Positions 5,671 to 40,488 of a stretch of 64,000 nucleotides of DNA are shown here, piece by piece. The position numbers were made by a program, and so were the translations under genes. The number at the start of each line of letters is the position of its first letter. Positions within the stretch are counted from its first letter, which is position 1. The notes under the pieces were generated by a model, which worked only from the letters and a program-made list of their open reading frames with translations, ran no database searches and was not told the origin of the DNA. Source of the stretch: Phycisphaerales bacterium (GTDB lineage Bacteria; Planctomycetota; Phycisphaerae; Phycisphaerales; JAGLTS01); the NCBI GenBank assembly GCA_023135165.1, contig JAGLTS010000045.1, forward strand, positions 1 through 64,000. Direction: 5' to 3'.

Positions 5671-6097
5671 CCAGCCGACGCTCCACGCTCCCGCAGCCCG
5701 GCTGGTCACGGGTGTGGTCATTACATCGGTTGCGGCCGGCGTGATTGCGTACATCGTCGCGCTCATCACCCAACCAGACGCCGCGATGGATGCATGGTGG
5801 GCTACCCTGGTTGTTCTGCTCAGCGCGCTGGCGGGCACGATCTTCCTCATGACGCGAGGCAGCCGAACGATCGTCGAGTGGTCGGCAGCGTGGCTTGCCG
5901 CGACGGGCATCCGCCTCGCCGGCACCGTCCTTCTGGCCATCGGTGCGTACTTCCTCGTTGATCCGGACCCACTCGTCGGCGCACTGAGTCTTACCGGTGG
6001 TTACATTGCAGTCTTGATCGTCGAAGCGACGATACTGACGCGCGCGCTGCGACGGGCATGGGACGCCCGCACATCGGCTGCGGATCGCGTGGAGTAA
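5651..6097 (+). CDS. ATP synthase protein I-like membrane protein
   Basis: 148 aa with four likely membrane helices (for example LVTGVVITSVAAGVIAYIVA and LAGTVLLAIGAYFLV). Position between atpZ and atpB plus size and topology fit the poorly conserved AtpI (subunit I) chaperone that helps c-ring assembly. ATG 5651 is favoured because it lies within the end of atpZ; the upstream ATG at 5618 would lengthen the overlap. There is no sequence motif strong enough to fix the family, so the call rests largely on context. Confidence 0.6.
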   Translation: MPQPNADQPTLHAPAARLVTGVVITSVAAGVIAYIVALITQPDAAMDAWWATLVVLLSALAGTIFLMTRGSRTIVEWSAAWLAATGIRLAGTVLLAIGAYFLVDPDPLVGALSLTGGYIAVLIVEATILTRALRRAWDARTSAADRVE

Positions 6098-6102
6098 CGC
6101 CC

Positions 6103-7041
6103 ATGGACACGGCTGCGATCTCACCATCGCTCTTCACACTGGCGACAGAGAACAACCCCCTCCTGCACGTGCTGGATCATCCCTTCTCATGGGGTGAATC
6201 TTCCGGCGTCTGGTACTGGTCCTCGCACGTCGGGATGATCGCTCTCACCGGCTTGGTCATGCTCATCCTGTTCCCGCTGGTCGCGCGGAAGATCGCCACC
6301 GGGTCTAAAGCACAGGGCACAGTCCGCTACGTGACGCAAGGCAGCTTCGCCCATCTCGTCGAGGTGATCTGCGTCTACCTGCGCGATCAGGTCGTCAAGC
6401 CGGTCCTCGGCGAACGCACCGATCGCTTCATGCCCTACCTCTGGACGCTGTTCTTCTTCATCCTGCTGAACAATCTGCTCGGCATGATCCCGATCATGGA
6501 CCTGCTGTTCCTGGTCAAACCGAGCTGGCGAGGAGCGCACATCGCCCCGATCGGAGGCACCGCCACCGCCAACATCTGGGTCACGGGCGGGCTGGCGCTC
6601 GTCGCGTTTCTGGTCATCAACATCTCGGGCATCCGGGAACTCGGCGTCGCTGCGTACTGCAAGCACTTTCTCGGGGGTGCCCCGGCCTACCTCGCGCCGC
6701 TGATGATCCCCGTCGAGATCCTCGGCATGCTCGTCAAGCCCTCCGCGCTCATGATTCGTTTGTTCGCGAACATGAACGCCGGCCACATCCTGCTCGCGAC
6801 GCTGCTCATGTTCGTGAAAATGTCGTTCGAGGGGCTGGGGGCGGGAGGCGGGCTGGCGATCTCGATCCCGTCGATGCTCTTCGCGTTCGCGATCTATTTC
6901 CTGGAGATCTTCGTCGCGTTCCTCCAGGCGTTCATCTTCATGTTCCTGACGACGATCTTCATCAGCCAGTTCTCGCATCACGGCGAAGAACAGCATGAGC
7001 ATGACGACCGCGCCCACGGTGAACCGGTGGCGGCGCATTGA
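6103..7041 (+). CDS. atpB: ATP synthase F0 subunit a
   Basis: 312 aa polytopic protein. The penultimate helix region KPSALMIRLFANMNAGHILL holds the essential arginine of subunit a that faces the c-ring carboxylate. Other family features are FFFILLNNLLGMIP and a final helix rich in F/I. It forms the two proton half-channels of F0. The start is 5 bp after the preceding stop, at ATG 6103 (MDTAAISPSLF). It belongs to the same operon as atpE, atpF and atpH. Confidence 0.95.
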   Translation: MDTAAISPSLFTLATENNPLLHVLDHPFSWGESSGVWYWSSHVGMIALTGLVMLILFPLVARKIATGSKAQGTVRYVTQGSFAHLVEVICVYLRDQVVKPVLGERTDRFMPYLWTLFFFILLNNLLGMIPIMDLLFLVKPSWRGAHIAPIGGTATANIWVTGGLALVAFLVINISGIRELGVAAYCKHFLGGAPAYLAPLMIPVEILGMLVKPSALMIRLFANMNAGHILLATLLMFVKMSFEGLGAGGGLAISIPSMLFAFAIYFLEIFVAFLQAFIFMFLTTIFISQFSHHGEEQHEHDDRAHGEPVAAH

Positions 7042-7152
7042 TCTGAGCGGAAAGGCCCCAGCCGGCGAGTGGAACGACCGGTCGTGCCCCATTGAGGGAA
7101 CGGGCCTCACCGACGCGATTCCACCGTGTCACGCAATCGAAAGAGGATTCTC

Positions 7153-7527
7153 ATGAGAAACATCATCTTCTTCGCCCTCACGGCATTCGCCGTGACGTGC
7201 CTCTTCGCCTCCTCCGCCGCACAGGCGCAGGAGGGACAAGAGATCACCAAAGAGCAGATCCAGATGGCCACGGCCGAGACCGTCACAACAGTCGGCATCA
7301 CCAACACGGCGGGCAAGGCCATCGGGGCCGGCCTGGGCGTGGGCCTCGCGCTCATCGGCGGCGGTCGAGGCATCGGCAACATCGGCGCGCGAGCCGTCGA
7401 AGCCATGGCGCGCCAGCCGGAAGTGGCCGGCCCGATCGGCACGAACATGATCATCTCCGCCGCGCTCATCGAAGGGGCGACGCTCTTCGCAGTCGTCGTC
7501 TCGCTCCTCATCATCATCTTGGCGTAG
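7153..7527 (+). CDS. atpE: ATP synthase F0 subunit c, with N-terminal signal-like extension
   Basis: 124 aa, longer than the usual 70-90. Residues 1-26 (MRNIIFFALTAFAVTCLFAS...AQAQ) look like a cleavable signal peptide, followed by a short polar stretch and then the two-helix hairpin: GAGLGVGLALIGGGRGIGNIG, polar loop ARQPE, and IISAALIEGATLFAVVVSLL with the proton-binding glutamate. The position and form of the carboxylate fit an H+-type ring, but the coupling ion is not proven. RBS AAAGAGG lies 6-7 nt before ATG 7153. A hairpin follows in the gap to atpF. Confidence 0.93.
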   Translation: MRNIIFFALTAFAVTCLFASSAAQAQEGQEITKEQIQMATAETVTTVGITNTAGKAIGAGLGVGLALIGGGRGIGNIGARAVEAMARQPEVAGPIGTNMIISAALIEGATLFAVVVSLLIIILA

Positions 7528-7540
7528 ACCAACACACACC

Positions 7541-7570
7541 GGCTCGGCGCTGAAGAAGCGCCGGGTCGGC
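7541..7570 (+). other. Intra-operon hairpin between atpE and atpF
   Basis: CGGCGCT / AGCGCCG arms (7 bp, extendable by wobble pairs) around GAAGA. There is no strong T-run. At this place it could protect the 3' end of an atpE-containing mRNA or partly terminate, giving more subunit c than b, which F0 stoichiometry requires. That role is inferred from position only. Confidence 0.4.
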
Positions 7571-7611
7571 TTTCCGATTCCAGCGTGCATCAAATCACGG
7601 AGATCGATCAG

Positions 7612-8313
7612 ATGCAACGGATTCCGCTCCTCCTCCTCACCGTCGTCGGACTGGTTCTGGCACTCGGTTCACCCACCCTGGCGCAGCATGACGTGCAGCC
7701 GCCCACTGCGACATCGCACGAAAGCGCCGCACCGACCGACGATGCAGCCCACATCAGCGAGACGCCTCACGAGCAGGCGGGCCACGCAACTCATGCCCCG
7801 GAGGGCGATGTTCTGCCTCCATGGTGGCAGGGCGCCGCGCCGCTTCTCGCCGCGTGGATCGTCTTCGGCGCGGTTTTCATCGTCCTCGGCAAAACGGTTT
7901 GGCCGAAGATCCTCAGCGGGCTCAACGACCGTGAGCAGAAGATCAAGCAGGAGATCGAGTCCGCCGAGGCAGCCCGTCGCCAAGCGAACGAAGCGTTGGA
8001 GCAGTATCAGGCGAATCTCGCCGAGGCGCGTGCCGAGGCTGCGGCGATGATCGAGAAGACGCGCGCCGCGCAGCGAGCATTGGCGGATGAACTTCACCTG
8101 CAGTCCGAGCGGGAGCTTGCGGACATGAAGCAGCGTGCCACACAAGACATCGAGGCTGCCAAGCGTGCGGCGATGAGCGAGATCTACACGCTGATGGCCA
8201 ACCTCGCGACCAGCGTGGCGGGCAGAATCCTCGAACGCGAGATCAAGCCCGAGGACCACAAAGCCCTTGTGGACGATGCACTCAGTGAACTCGGCAGCTT
8301 CGGTCGAAACTGA
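7612..8313 (+). CDS. atpF: ATP synthase F0 subunit b, with signal-like N-terminus and long exposed segment
   Basis: 233 aa. Residues 1-23 (MQRIPLLLLTVVGLVLALGS) resemble a signal peptide; about 50 polar His/Ala/Pro-rich residues follow before the membrane anchor PLLAAWIVFGAVFIVLGKTVW. The rest is the charged coiled coil typical of subunit b (EIESAEAARRQANEALEQ onwards) that forms the peripheral stalk and binds delta. GGAG precedes ATG 7612. Canonical b subunits start directly with the anchor helix, so this N-terminal arrangement is unusual. Confidence 0.9.
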   Translation: MQRIPLLLLTVVGLVLALGSPTLAQHDVQPPTATSHESAAPTDDAAHISETPHEQAGHATHAPEGDVLPPWWQGAAPLLAAWIVFGAVFIVLGKTVWPKILSGLNDREQKIKQEIESAEAARRQANEALEQYQANLAEARAEAAAMIEKTRAAQRALADELHLQSERELADMKQRATQDIEAAKRAAMSEIYTLMANLATSVAGRILEREIKPEDHKALVDDALSELGSFGRN

Positions 8314-8344
8314 CCACTGACTCCTCCGCACGATTGGGTGACGC

Positions 8345-8956
8345 ATGATGATGGATGGACAGATCGACGCACTCGCCAGGGTCTACGCACAGAGCCTGCT
8401 TAACCTCGCCGACGAGGCGGGCGGCAGGGATCTCGTCACCGACATCGGCGAGGAGCTTGCGGACATCGTCAACCTCACTCGGGAAGATGCAAAGTTCAAG
8501 GAGTTTCTCAGCTCCATCATCCTGCCCGTCAAAGCGCGTGCAGCATCGCTTCGCCGAATCTTCGAATCGCGCGCAAGTGATCTGACGCTCCGGTTCCTGC
8601 TTGTCCTCAATCGCAAGGGCCGGCTCAACCATCTGCCATCCATCGAGCGTGCGTATCGGCAGCTTCGTGAGGAGCTGTTCGGGTACATCGCCGTCGGCGT
8701 GACGACATCGACAAGCCTCGATGCTGAACAGGTCGCCCAGATCACCAACCGCCTCCGCAACGCCCTGGGCAAGGAGCCAGTCATCTCCATAGCCGTTGAT
8801 CCGGAACTGATCGGCGGCATGACGCTCCAGATCGGCGACAAGTTCATCGATGCCTCGGTGCAGGCCCGTCTCCGACGTCTCGCCGACCGGCTCAAGACGA
8901 CCGGCGCCCAGACGATCCGTGACCGGGCGGACGATTTGATCGAATCGACGGGGTAA
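8345..8956 (+). CDS. atpH: ATP synthase F1 subunit delta
   Basis: 203 aa, close to family size. The N-terminal six-helix domain (ALARVYAQSLLNLADEAGG) and the C-terminal IGGMTLQIGDKFIDASVQ.RL are hallmarks of the delta/OSCP family that joins the peripheral stalk to the top of alpha3beta3. Three ATGs in a row make the precise start uncertain by two residues. In canonical operons atpA follows directly; here the + strand series ends and atpA is found inverted 1.4 kb away. Confidence 0.93.
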   Translation: MMMDGQIDALARVYAQSLLNLADEAGGRDLVTDIGEELADIVNLTREDAKFKEFLSSIILPVKARAASLRRIFESRASDLTLRFLLVLNRKGRLNHLPSIERAYRQLREELFGYIAVGVTTSTSLDAEQVAQITNRLRNALGKEPVISIAVDPELIGGMTLQIGDKFIDASVQARLRRLADRLKTTGAQTIRDRADDLIESTG

Positions 8957-9099
8957 CGGGCGGTTCACGCTCCATGTCAACCGCGCATCGAAGAGGCCCA
9001 AAGCCCGTTGCCGGTGGAACTCGTGGTAGACTGAGGCGTCCAACCACGAAGCGGTGTATGTGCGCCGCGCGATATCAACCCGTGATCGGGAGTTTGACC

Positions 9100-9855
9100 A
9101 TGAACTGGCTCATTCACATGACGTGCTTCGCTGGACTGTTCGCCTTTGCCGTCAGCGCTGTCCCCGCGTTCGCGCAGATGCCGTGCGACCATCACGAGCC
9201 GGTTCCGATGCTCACCGTGACCGGGCAGGCGGAGTTGGAACGGCCGGCCGACCAACTTCAGATGAGCCTCGCTGTCATCACTGAAGACGAAGAGGCGAAG
9301 TCCGCGGTGAGCGAGAACTCGCGCACGATGCGGCGCGTCATCGAAGCGCTGGAGCGCGCCGGCCTCGAAGAAGATGAATACGAGACGGGGCGCTTCTCGA
9401 TTCAGCCCAAGTACAGCAGAAGGCCACACAACGCGGACCGGGACTGGACCGCGAAGATCGTCGGCTACCGCGTTGAGAACATGCTGATCATCAAGACCAA
9501 GAAGCTCGAACTCATCGGCGAACTGATCGAGCGAGGCGTCCAAGCCGGCGCGAACAACGTCGGCTCGATCAACTTCGGCCTGGCGGACCGGCGCATGCAC
9601 CGCGGCGAGGCGATCCTTGAGGCGACGACGAACGCCAGAGCGGATGCCGACGCGCTCGCCGAGGCGGCGGGCGTGAAACTCGTGCGTGTGCTGTCAGTGA
9701 ACCTCGACGGCGCCGCCGCACCGCCGATCCCGTACCGGGGCGAGAAGATGATGATGGCCACACGCGGCGGCGAGTCGGATACCCCGCCGATTCAGCCCGG
9801 CGACGTCACCGTGCGAGCACACGTCACGATCGTCTACGAGATCGCAGACAACTGA
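9100..9855 (+). CDS. SIMPL (DUF541) domain exported protein
   Basis: 251 aa with a signal peptide (WLIHMTCFAGLFAFAVSAVPAFAQ) then a SIMPL/DUF541 domain: LTVTGQAELERPADQLQMSL at the front, VGYRVENMLIIKTKKLELIG in the middle and VTVRAHVTIVYEI at the end. The family forms periplasmic or envelope oligomers, with some members linked to oxidative stress or kinase-associated signalling; no specific role can be given. ATG 9100 is preceded by CGGGAG; the track start at 8974 lies before it without signal-peptide character. Confidence 0.85.
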   Translation: MNWLIHMTCFAGLFAFAVSAVPAFAQMPCDHHEPVPMLTVTGQAELERPADQLQMSLAVITEDEEAKSAVSENSRTMRRVIEALERAGLEEDEYETGRFSIQPKYSRRPHNADRDWTAKIVGYRVENMLIIKTKKLELIGELIERGVQAGANNVGSINFGLADRRMHRGEAILEATTNARADADALAEAAGVKLVRVLSVNLDGAAAPPIPYRGEKMMMATRGGESDTPPIQPGDVTVRAHVTIVYEIADN

Positions 9856-9860
9856 CCGGA

Positions 9861-9885
9861 CCTGCGTTGCGTAGCAACGCGGCTA
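9861..9885 (+). repeat. REP hairpin, type 1, left of the RAYT gene
   Basis: Stem GCGTTGC / GCAACGC (7 bp, perfect), loop GTA, tail GGCTA, head CCT. The same architecture recurs inverted at 10371-10395 and direct at 39546-39570, with compensatory changes in the stem, which supports a real structured repeat. Confidence 0.75.
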
Positions 9886-9893
9886 TTGCGCCG

Positions 9894-10373
9894 ATGCCCT
9901 GCTACCTCTTCACTTTCCATGCCTACGGCACGTGGATGCCGGATCGCCCGCAAGGCTATGTGCATCACACCAGCGGGTTGCAGCCGCGTGATCCGGCAAT
10001 GGCGGAGCGATATCGCGCCAAACAAGCTGCGCAGATGGTGAACTTCACCCATCAGATGCAGCAGTGCTTGGTGGATGCAGCGATTCAGGCACAGACACAC
10101 GTGCAGACCACGGTGCATGCGGTTGCGACTGATCCGACGCACGTTCACGTTCTTGTGAGTTGGAATCACGCTCGCACGTGGGAGTCGATTCGGCGCAGCT
10201 TGCGCCACTCGTTCTCACGTGCGCTGAATGGGCAATTCACGAAACGCGCGTGGTTTGCAGCACAAGGTTCACGCAAGCGCATACGCGACCACGCGCACTT
10301 CGATCACTTGACGAACGTCTATCTCCCGGACCATCGCGGAGTCGTGTCGATCAACTCACGAAGCGAACCATAG
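9894..10373 (+). CDS. REP-associated tyrosine transposase (RAYT, IS200-like Y1 HUH)
   Basis: 159 aa. MPCYLFTFHAYGTWMPD opens the protein, DPTHVHVLVSW carries the HUH metal-binding histidine pair, and the C-terminal HFDHLTNVYLPDH contains the candidate nucleophilic tyrosine. Such single-domain enzymes nick and rejoin single-stranded REP hairpins and are usually domesticated single-copy genes. Here the gene is bracketed by two REP elements in inverted orientation, and its TAG stop is the first three bases of the right-hand one. ATG 9894 is preferred over TTG 9867, which would fall inside the left REP. It sits exactly at the break between the F0/delta genes and inverted atpA. Confidence 0.85.
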   Translation: MPCYLFTFHAYGTWMPDRPQGYVHHTSGLQPRDPAMAERYRAKQAAQMVNFTHQMQQCLVDAAIQAQTHVQTTVHAVATDPTHVHVLVSWNHARTWESIRRSLRHSFSRALNGQFTKRAWFAAQGSRKRIRDHAHFDHLTNVYLPDHRGVVSINSRSEP

Positions 10374-10395
10374 CCGGGCTGCTACGCAGCCCAGG
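10371..10395 (-). repeat. REP hairpin, type 1, right of the RAYT gene (inverted)
   Basis: Read on the minus strand: head CCT, stem GGGCTGC / GCAGCCC, loop GTA, tail GGCTA. Head, loop and tail are identical to the left copy while the stems differ with pairing kept. It fills most of the gap between the converging RAYT and atpA stops and may also act as their terminator. Confidence 0.78.
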
Positions 10396-10401
10396 AGTCG
10401 G

Positions 10402-11958
10402 TCAGCCTGTCGGCGACCATGTCTCTTTGAACTCGCGGACCGCCTTGGTGATCTTCTCACGCAGATCGTCGGTCAGCTCGCGCGCCTCATTGAGCTCATC
10501 CCAGAGCGGTTTGCACGGACCGTGCATGTACTCGCGCATCGCCTTCTCAAAGTCAAGCACTTTGTCCGCCTTCACATCGTCGAGCAGTCCCTGTGTGCCG
10601 GCGAAGATCGAGATGACCTGATCGATCACGTGGTAAGGCACGTATTGCGGCTGCAACAGCAGTTGCACCATGCGTTCGCCGCGGTCGAGTTGGGCTTGCG
10701 TCGCCTTGTCAAGCTCCGTGCCGAGCTGGGCGAAGGCTTCAAGCTCACGGTATGCAGCGAGATCCAGTCGCAACGTACCGGCGATCTGCTTCATCGCCTT
10801 GACCTGCGCGTTGGAGCCGACGCGCGAGACGGAGATGCCGACGTTCACCGCGGGGCGGATGCCGGCGAAGAAGAGATCCGGTTCGAGGTAGATCTGCCCG
10901 TCCGTGATGGAGATGACGTTGGTGGGGATGTACGCGGAGACATCGCCTTCCTGCGTTTCGATGATGGGCAGCGCCGTGAGGCTGCCGGCGCCGTGCTCGT
11001 CGGAGAGCTTGGTGGCGCGTTCGAGGAGTCTGCTGTGAAGGTAGAAGACGTCGCCGGGGTAGGCCTCGCGCCCGGGCGGACGACGGAGCAGCAGCGAGAG
11101 TTGGCGGTAGGCCGTCGCCTGCTTGGAAAGGTCATCGTAGATGCACAGGACGTGCTTGGGCGTCTTGCCTTCCTTGCCGAGCCACATGAAGTACTCGCCC
11201 ATCGCGCAGCCGGAGTACGGGGCGATGTACTGGAGCGGGGCGGGATCGGCAGCCGACGCGTTGACGATGATCGTGTAGTCCATCGCGCCGTGCTTGCGAA
11301 GCGTCTGGACGACACCCGCGACTGTGGATTCCTTCTGACCGATCGCAACGTAGATGCAGACGACAGCATCATCGGTGCCCCACCATTCCTTTTGGTTGAT
11401 GATGGCGTCGATGGCGATGGCCGTCTTTCCCGTCTTGCGGTCGCCGATGATGAGTTCGCGCTGCCCACGCCCGATGGGGATCATCGAGTCGATGGCCTTA
11501 AGCCCGGTCTGGAGCGGCTCCTTCACCGGCTGACGCGCCGCAATGCCGGGTGCGATGACATCGACCTTTCGGCTGGCGGTCGCCTCGATCGCAGGCCCGC
11601 CGTCGATCGGCTCGCCGAGCGGGTTGACGACGCGCCCCAGCAGCGCCTCGCCGACGGGCACTTCGAGGAGCCTGCCGGTCGACTTGACCGTGTCTCCTTC
11701 TTCGACCGCGAGATAATCGCCGTAGATCACCGCACCGACGGTGTCGAGTTCCAGGTTGAAGACTTGCCCCATCACCGTGCCGTGGTCCGTCTCGAATGCG
11801 AGCAGTTCGCCCGCCATCGCTTCGGACAGGCCGTAGATCCTCGCGATTCCGTCGCCGACCTCGACGACTCGCCCGATTTCCGAGACCTCCAACTCATCCC
11901 GGTAGTTGGCGATCTCGCCTTGGATGATCGTCCCGATTTCGTCAGTTCTGATCTTCAC
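10402..11958 (-). CDS. atpA: ATP synthase F1 subunit alpha, isolated and inverted
   Basis: 518 aa. Walker [16 protein letters not shown], the alpha-type [11 protein letters not shown], and [10 protein letters not shown] all identify the non-catalytic alpha subunit. The start is GTG 11958 ([16 protein letters not shown]) with GAGGA upstream; the track's extra 75 residues are unrelated. It is transcribed towards the rest of the ATP synthase genes, separated by a SIMPL gene and a RAYT/REP unit. No atpG, atpD or atpC follows, since its 3' side is the RAYT. Those subunits must be encoded elsewhere if the enzyme is functional. Confidence 0.96.
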
Positions 11959-12234
11959 AGCACAGTTCCTCGGTTGCGGTCTGAGCCGGGTCATGGAGCG
12001 CATCATGGTCGCGTCCATCGAAGCTGCTAGCGTAGCGTTTCGCCGCACAACTGTCGCCCCGGCACCGCGCCAAACGGGTATCGGCATCGGCAACATGACC
12101 GAAATGCCCAAGTTTGGGACACATGCTACCGCTGCGGGTGTGCTACATTTTGATGTGGACTTGGCTTCAGTGGAAGCTAACACGAGAGCGTCCGGTCGCA
12201 GCCGGCCGCCGACAACATCGTTGGGAGGATCGAC

Positions 12235-39545: not shown

Positions 39546-39570
39546 TCTGGGCTGCGCAGCAGCCCGGCTA
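39546..39570 (+). repeat. REP hairpin, type 1, at the 3' end of the sigma factor gene
   Basis: Head TCT, stem GGGCTGC / GCAGCCC, loop GCA, tail GGCTA. It differs from the copy right of the RAYT gene at only two positions (head and loop), 29 kb away. Its terminal CTA is the TAG stop codon of the sigma factor on the minus strand. Confidence 0.8.
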
Positions 39571-40488
39571 GCCGGCAGCGGCGCGGCGCTTGTTGCGCCC
39601 ACGACGGATCGGGCCCGGTTCGCCCTGGTCGCCGCGGTTCTCACGGAAGAATCGGCTGGGCCACTCATCCGTGATCTGTGCGTTGAGCTTGCGTAGCGCC
39701 TCGGCTTCGATCTGACGGACGCGCTCGCGCGTCAGGCCGATCTCCTTGCCGATCTGCTTGAGCGTGAGCGGCTGCTGTCCATCCAGGCCGAAGCGAAGGC
39801 GCAACACGCGGGCTTCCCGCACGTCGATGGCGTCGAGCAGCTTCTTGATCGTGCGCATCTCGTCGGCGTCGTAAACGACCTGGTCCGGCTGATCGCCGTT
39901 CGTGTCGGCGAAGAGGTCGCCGAGGTTCATGACCTCGCCATCCTCGCCCATCGGCGCCTGCGTGGGCGAGTAGAACGCGCGCACCGCACGCCGAATCACG
40001 CGGATCTTCTTGACCGACACGTTCATGTGCTCAGCCAACTCCTGCATCGTCGGCGCCCGACCGAGCATGTCCTCGAGCTCCCGGCTCATCTGCTTCCACT
40101 TCGCGATCAGCTCGATCATGTACGCGGGGATGTGGATGGGCTGCACAGCGTTGATGAGCGCTCGCTTGATCGCTTGCTTGATCCACCACGAGGCGTAGGT
40201 GGAGAAACGAGCGCCTTGCGCGGGGTCAAAGCCCTCGACCGCACGGATCAGGCCGACGTTGCCTTCTTCGATGAGATCGGTGAGCGTGAGACCGCGATTG
40301 ACGTAGTTCTTGGCGATGGACACGACCAGGCGCAGGTTCGCGCTCACCATCTGTTCGCGCGCTTCGGCATCCCCGTCGTTGATGATCCGCCAGCCGAGAT
40401 GCTTCTCCTCCTCGGCTGTCAGCAACGGCGTGATGTTAATCCGCCTCAGGTAAAGCTGCAGGTCCGACTGCAGCCCGGATTTGGCCAT
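39568..40488 (-). CDS. RNA polymerase sigma-70 factor, RpoD/SigA-like
   Basis: 306 aa. Region 1.2 (LQLYLRRINITPLLT), region 2 (NLRLVVSIAKNYVNRGLTL, ARFSTYASWWIKQAI), region 3 and region 4.2 (LTLKQIGKEIGLTRERVRQI) are all present. The long acidic region 1.1 of housekeeping sigma factors is absent, and the basic tail (RRGRNKRRAAAG) is unusual. It could be the primary sigma of a short type or a group 2 paralogue. It ends inside a REP hairpin. Confidence 0.9.
   Translation of the reverse strand: MAKSGLQSDLQLYLRRINITPLLTAEEEKHLGWRIINDGDAEAREQMVSANLRLVVSIAKNYVNRGLTLTDLIEEGNVGLIRAVEGFDPAQGARFSTYASWWIKQAIKRALINAVQPIHIPAYMIELIAKWKQMSRELEDMLGRAPTMQELAEHMNVSVKKIRVIRRAVRAFYSPTQAPMGEDGEVMNLGDLFADTNGDQPDQVVYDADEMRTIKKLLDAIDVREARVLRLRFGLDGQQPLTLKQIGKEIGLTRERVRQIEAEALRKLNAQITDEWPSRFFRENRGDQGEPGPIRRGRNKRRAAAG

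Follow-up and report, generated by a model that had tools for sequence, protein, structure and literature searches.

In the window, i.e., the whole stretch of 64,000 nucleotides analysed here, a compact unit of 535 bp is placed between two convergent genes and consists of two 25-nt elements with different, perfect 7-bp stems that are inverted around an open reading frame. The features of this unit and a third element of the same kind are the following:

9861-9885, left REP; plus strand as CCT-GCGTTGC-GTA-GCAACGC-GGCTA, minus strand in the tag orientation as A-TAG-CC-GCGTTGC-TAC-GCAACGC-A-GG; tag faces the gene
9894-10373, plus strand, RAYT-like TnpA-Y1 gene of 159 aa with H83-x-H85 (THVH), W90, Y143 and H147 (Y+4)
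10371-10395, right REP; minus strand as CCT-GGGCTGC-GTA-GCAGCCC-GGCTA, plus strand in the tag orientation as A-TAG-CC-GGGCTGC-TAC-GCAGCCC-A-GG; tag faces the gene and overlaps the RAYT stop codon
39546-39570, minus strand, third REP of the window, slightly degenerate, TCTGGGCTGCGCAGCAGCCCGGCTA on the plus strand

The reading frame starts with the ATG at 9894, 8 nt behind the left hairpin, and its stop codon (TAG, 10371-10373) is at the same time the TAG of the right REP tag, so that the gene terminates within a hairpin. The unit begins 6 nt past the end (9855) of an apparently SIMPL-like gene and ends 7 nt short of the end of atpA (10402, minus strand), recognised by eye from the sequence. The ATP synthase cluster (6058-12183) is seemingly split, with apparent atpB/E/F/H on the plus strand, the SIMPL-like gene, the RAYT and atpA on the minus strand (gene names by sequence inspection). 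A first-pass annotation had described two elements with a shared CCT, GTA and GGCTA and with different, perfectly paired 7-bp stems, inverted around a Y1 HUH transposase gene; both have been recovered at exactly the positions given above, their stems differ by compensatory changes, and the protein encoded between them is predicted to adopt the Y1 fold.

The same annotation had read CCT as a head and GGCTA as a tail, of which the letters hold but not the plain head-tail reading, as the conserved bases that stay unpaired are (R)TAG and CC may pair with GG. On the opposite strand, each element takes the form 5'-(R)TAG-CC-stem-TAC-stem-N-GG-3', in which the CC/GG foot can pair if one base is bulged out; a pairing of C2 with G22, which leaves a mismatch, fits as well. 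It is at the 5' foot of the hairpin that (A/G)TAG stays unpaired, which is where published REPs have their GTAG guide, and consequently the GGCTA tail is the guide tag seen from behind. Among the copies of the source genome the TAG is conserved, with A or G as the first tag base in most of them. TnpA-REP of E. coli and Stenotrophomonas has been reported to cut at C|T, and the last two tag bases to matter most for the Stenotrophomonas enzyme (PMC8266576); by analogy, a tag that keeps TAG and is loose in its first base agrees with a guide of this kind. The TAG of the tag forms the RAYT stop codon in 10 of 46 homologues (including L152, L156, L158, L055, L056, L065-L067 and L076). It also forms the stop codon of unrelated neighbouring predicted genes, namely at L004, at L036 and at the third window REP, at which a gene predicted on the minus strand (39568-40488, stop codon 39568-39570) ends.

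Further copies in the source genome (3.9 Mb, 119 contigs, 92% complete) have been counted by pattern and covariance searches. The pattern CCT-N7-GTA-N7-GGCTA has 10 matches, nine of them perfectly palindromic, versus 4 for the reversed control pattern, the family pattern has 19 versus 2, and the covariance model recovers 28 REP copies at E<0.002; by these counts and controls, chance hairpins have been ruled out. The first-pass annotation had proposed a genome-wide count of copies and REPIN pairs and had named a restriction to these few copies as the outcome that would speak against it, and the count has yielded about 28 copies together with REPIN dimers. The prevailing stems are of two types, A (GCGTCGC/GCGTTGC) and B (GGGCTGC), which form A-B head-to-head dimers (REPINs) with outward tags on contigs C9, C25 and C51 with a spacer of 1 nt and on C28 with one of 2 nt, while several further B copies have a decayed A half in front and degenerate dimers occur elsewhere. 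With ~80% of the DNA being coding, 21 of 26 REP sites are intergenic according to a simple codon-usage caller, and the remaining five may partly reflect over-extended ORF starts. Since only ~30 copies are present, some of them degenerate, the REP family may be decaying in this genome; movement was not seen, as no close relative of the source genome, and hence no pair of empty and filled REP sites, turned up. Past the A-type tag, the copies L001, L006, L002 and L039 share ~20-30 nt, e.g., CTTGAGATCCCGAGGACTTGTGTATAAACC, as an extension of the repeat.

The AF2 model of the 159-aa protein has a pLDDT of 94, and a fold search against solved structures gives as the best match 4er8, a RAYT structure with a bound REP hairpin (E=2.8e-6, 13% identity), with the Y1 fold being common to the RAYT-like protein and IS608/ISDra2. 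A sequence search of solved structures yields only marginal IS608 matches. The scores of the window protein for Pfam Y1_Tnp (19.4, cut-off 23) and NCBIfam REP_Tyr_transpos (16.2, cut-off 80) are such that the current cut-offs overlook it, and a Y1_Tnp match at E<=1 is obtained for 24 of 29 family members. Residues H9, W14, G21, H83, H85, W90, Y143 and H147 are invariant in 29 homologues, and by inspection a His occupies Tyr+4 in 45 of 46 homologue translations, the exception (L070) having an insertion; the protein signature is THuH with Y-L-P-x-H (Y---H). In published Y1 enzymes the third metal ligand at the Y+4 place is a Gln, as with Q131 of IS608, or an Asn, as with N119 of the E. coli enzyme (PMC6006769), and His147 is by its position a putative third metal ligand; the invariant His would offer a direct test of the tolerance of HUH enzymes for a changed metal ligand.

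When 301 genomes of the order were searched with the protein, matches were obtained in 50, at E<1e-24 in 27, and 46 homologues have been examined, i.e., 29 and 17 further, mostly paralogous loci. In the flanks of the 29 homologues, counted with the most divergent one (L073) left out, there are 90 perfect hairpins at a distance of up to 250 nt from the gene, of which 58 are TAG-tagged, versus 5 of 52 beyond 500 nt, and these 58 gene-flanking tags are ATAG in 46, GTAG in 6, TTAG in 4 and CTAG in 2 cases. At the 17 held-out loci, unused in motif finding, the hairpins are TAG-tagged in 25 of 60 cases near the gene versus 1 of 17 far from it, and such hairpins occur at 13 of the 17 loci. TAG-tagged hairpins are thus found next to most of the 46 genes. 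The flanking stems are unrelated among homologues and vary freely, the paralogues of one genome each have their own hairpin type (L052, L156 and L157 in G024), and one relative (G030) harbours symmetric REPINs of ~78 bp with unrelated cores. Features by which RAYTs are generally recognised are seen here: an HUH motif and a single catalytic Tyr in a predicted Y1 fold, flanking REPs that are also dispersed and occur as inverted dimers, and a low copy number with low identity between copies within a genome. One homologue match (L074, G123:C52) is interrupted by seven in-frame stops and is apparently a decaying RAYT; REP copies are few in its genome.

Two REP patterns, one per loop class (3-nt and 4-nt), have been counted across the same 301 genomes. 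At least three copies of either pattern are found in 19 genomes with the gene (of 29 at E<1e-12) and in 5 without it (Fisher p ~1e-18), an association that is partly built in because the patterns derive from gene-flanking REPs, although this circularity partly affects the small counts, and the large ones, with 149 copies in G093 and 97 in G024 at the top, are free of it. The genomes with at least three copies of the second REP type and without a detected gene are G033, G108, G132, G159 and G296, several of these assemblies being incomplete. Among them, G132 (2.4 Mb, 90% complete) contains 28 copies of the 4-nt-loop REP and no detected RAYT of this family; the gene may have been lost, its contig may be missing, or another enzyme may supply the activity. 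On the transposase tree, the distribution of 3-nt and 4-nt loops takes one change compared with a shuffled mean of 8.2, and two compared with 12.0 when the paralogues are added. Loop size follows the transposase tree, and REP copy number follows gene presence. The alignment of 13 3-nt-loop REPs, with one L053-type hairpin left out and the C2-G22 pairing counted, shows compensatory changes in 22 cells and one-sided G-U changes in none (score 0.631 versus 0.197 shuffled), a result that is inflated by the choice of perfect stems.

With E. coli TnpA-REP/RAYT (class 2; 4ER8) the locus has in common the HUH-Y1 fold, the single gene between inverted REPs, the dispersed REPIN dimers and, at the foot of the hairpin, a 5' tag that ends with TAG. 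However, the E. coli protein is characterised by Y---NP and [ND]HuH and the planctomycete protein by Y-L-P-x-H and THuH, and the first base of the class 2 tag, 5' GT[AG]G, is replaced here mostly by A. The GTAG REP superfamily (Di Nocera 2013, PMC3733652) is alike in that its hairpin is short and has, at one foot, an unpaired tag with TAG as its last bases, in its HH dimers, in its intergenic location and in being known from Planctomycetes; it has an unpaired GTAG at one stem end, whereas gene-flanking copies are ATAG in 46/58 and GTAG in 6/58 cases here, and the window subfamily has a C-C/G-G foot with a bulged base.

Taken together, we consider it highly probable that the locus is a REPtron, in which a single-copy domesticated HUH-Y1 nuclease uses single-stranded DNA hairpins with a 5' (A/G)TAG foot guide as substrates. 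The REP/RAYT interpretation of the first-pass annotation gains support from the many copies, the REPIN dimers, the Y1 fold nearest to E. coli TnpA-REP and the co-evolution of gene and repeats. In the proposed working, a dimer would bind the TAG-tagged hairpin when it is single-stranded, e.g., on the lagging-strand template, and the TAG guide would set a nearby C|T-like site. Tyr143 would cleave there, with the metal held by His83, His85 and, unusually, His147, to yield a 5'-phosphotyrosine, and the freed 3' end would be rejoined elsewhere. REPs would be copied or moved in trans, largely as head-to-head REPINs with outward tags, into intergenic sites, and the gene with its two flanking REPs would remain in place and be kept singly.

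An insertion sequence of the IS200/IS605 type, whose hairpins are the ends of a 535-bp unit that moves as a whole and leaves the scattered hairpins as remnants of ends, would be in line with the very compact unit, with the catalytic fold and presumed ssDNA chemistry shared with IS608 and ISDra2, and with the REP copy L005, which has GGCTATTGCGCC in common with the left flank of the unit. Class 1 elements of this type, however, carry Y---Q and occur in many near-identical copies, whereas Y---Q is absent here and no multicopy unit exists: the source genome contains a single copy, and whole-unit IS-like mobility has been rejected as no second intact 535-bp unit was found in it. Paralogues in the relatives have unequal identities of 33-55% to the query and are not near-identical among themselves, and this divergence together with their different flanking REPs is unlike copies of an active IS. 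Moreover, both ends belong to one hairpin family, as inverted copies, and its dispersed copies form REPIN dimers, and plasmids and viral contigs contain no homologue, for which reason carriage by phage or plasmid has also been rejected. We regard the insertion sequence as the least probable of the readings considered here.

Nearly as improbable is that the repeats serve as hairpins of mRNA 3' ends or of terminators, or as binding sites of a protein, with a Y1 gene that is a relic or stands next to them by coincidence. The REPs indeed sit between genes, often next to stop codons, and their tag supplies such a codon to homologues and other genes as described above, but across the order the architecture of tag and loop goes with the phylogeny of the transposase and with the presence of the gene, and the 13 aligned repeats, although selected for perfect stems, show two-sided pair changes only and no G-U cells, which fits selection at the DNA level. 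No match was obtained in Rfam, and a known RNA family has been rejected on this ground. An ordinary class 3 TnpA-Y1 REPtron as in Quentin et al. 2018 comes closer and is nevertheless unlikely. Class 3, with 24 members (PMC6006769), is also found in Planctomycetes with REP-like flanks, and hhalign against class-3-like planctomycete proteins, which have NHVH and mostly Y----Q, gives 99.8% probability over 138 columns, including a shared N-terminal extension. Against this stand the published class definition (NHVH, Y----Q and CnGA-tagged hairpins versus THuH, Y---H and NTAG here) and the class-3-like control loci, at which only 2 of 25 hairpins near the gene and 3 of 60 far from it are TAG-tagged.

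Among the 12 published TnpA-Y1 subclasses (PMC6006769), class 3 is nearest to the protein, and by its sequence signature it fits none of them, because theirs are Y---Q, Y---NP or Y----Q. No description of this subclass was found in the open-licence main texts covered, which represent the original RAYT-group work through citing papers, and both the catalytic signature and the ATAG/NTAG-tagged REPs appear undescribed in this literature. The supposition of the first-pass annotation that a planctomycete family with a GGCTA tail may be new gains support in this respect; the phylum is not the novelty, as earlier work has described GTAG REPs and RAYT-like Y1 genes from Planctomycetes (PMC3733652, PMC6006769), and GGCTA complements the (A/G)TAGCC 5' tag, which makes the repeats a variant of the GTAG type and not wholly foreign. 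Evenly balanced, in our estimate, is the wider proposal of an order-wide distinct class of domesticated Y1 transposases in which a third His replaces the Gln/Asn ligand, the guide has changed from GTAG to ATAG/NTAG and the hairpin families co-diversify. The locus and its homologues extend REP/RAYT biology to a deep lineage outside the Proteobacteria, in which enzymes and hairpins are naturally paired dozens of times, and from the co-variation of these pairs the recognition rules (loop of 3 versus 4 nt, first tag base, bulged foot) could be read and tested by swapping. The source genome also encodes distant Y1 proteins, L024 (C57:49872), L025 (C41:51990) and L026 (C51:1473), of which L024 is class-3-like (NHIH, YIEQQ) and L026 combines THTH with YIEQH.
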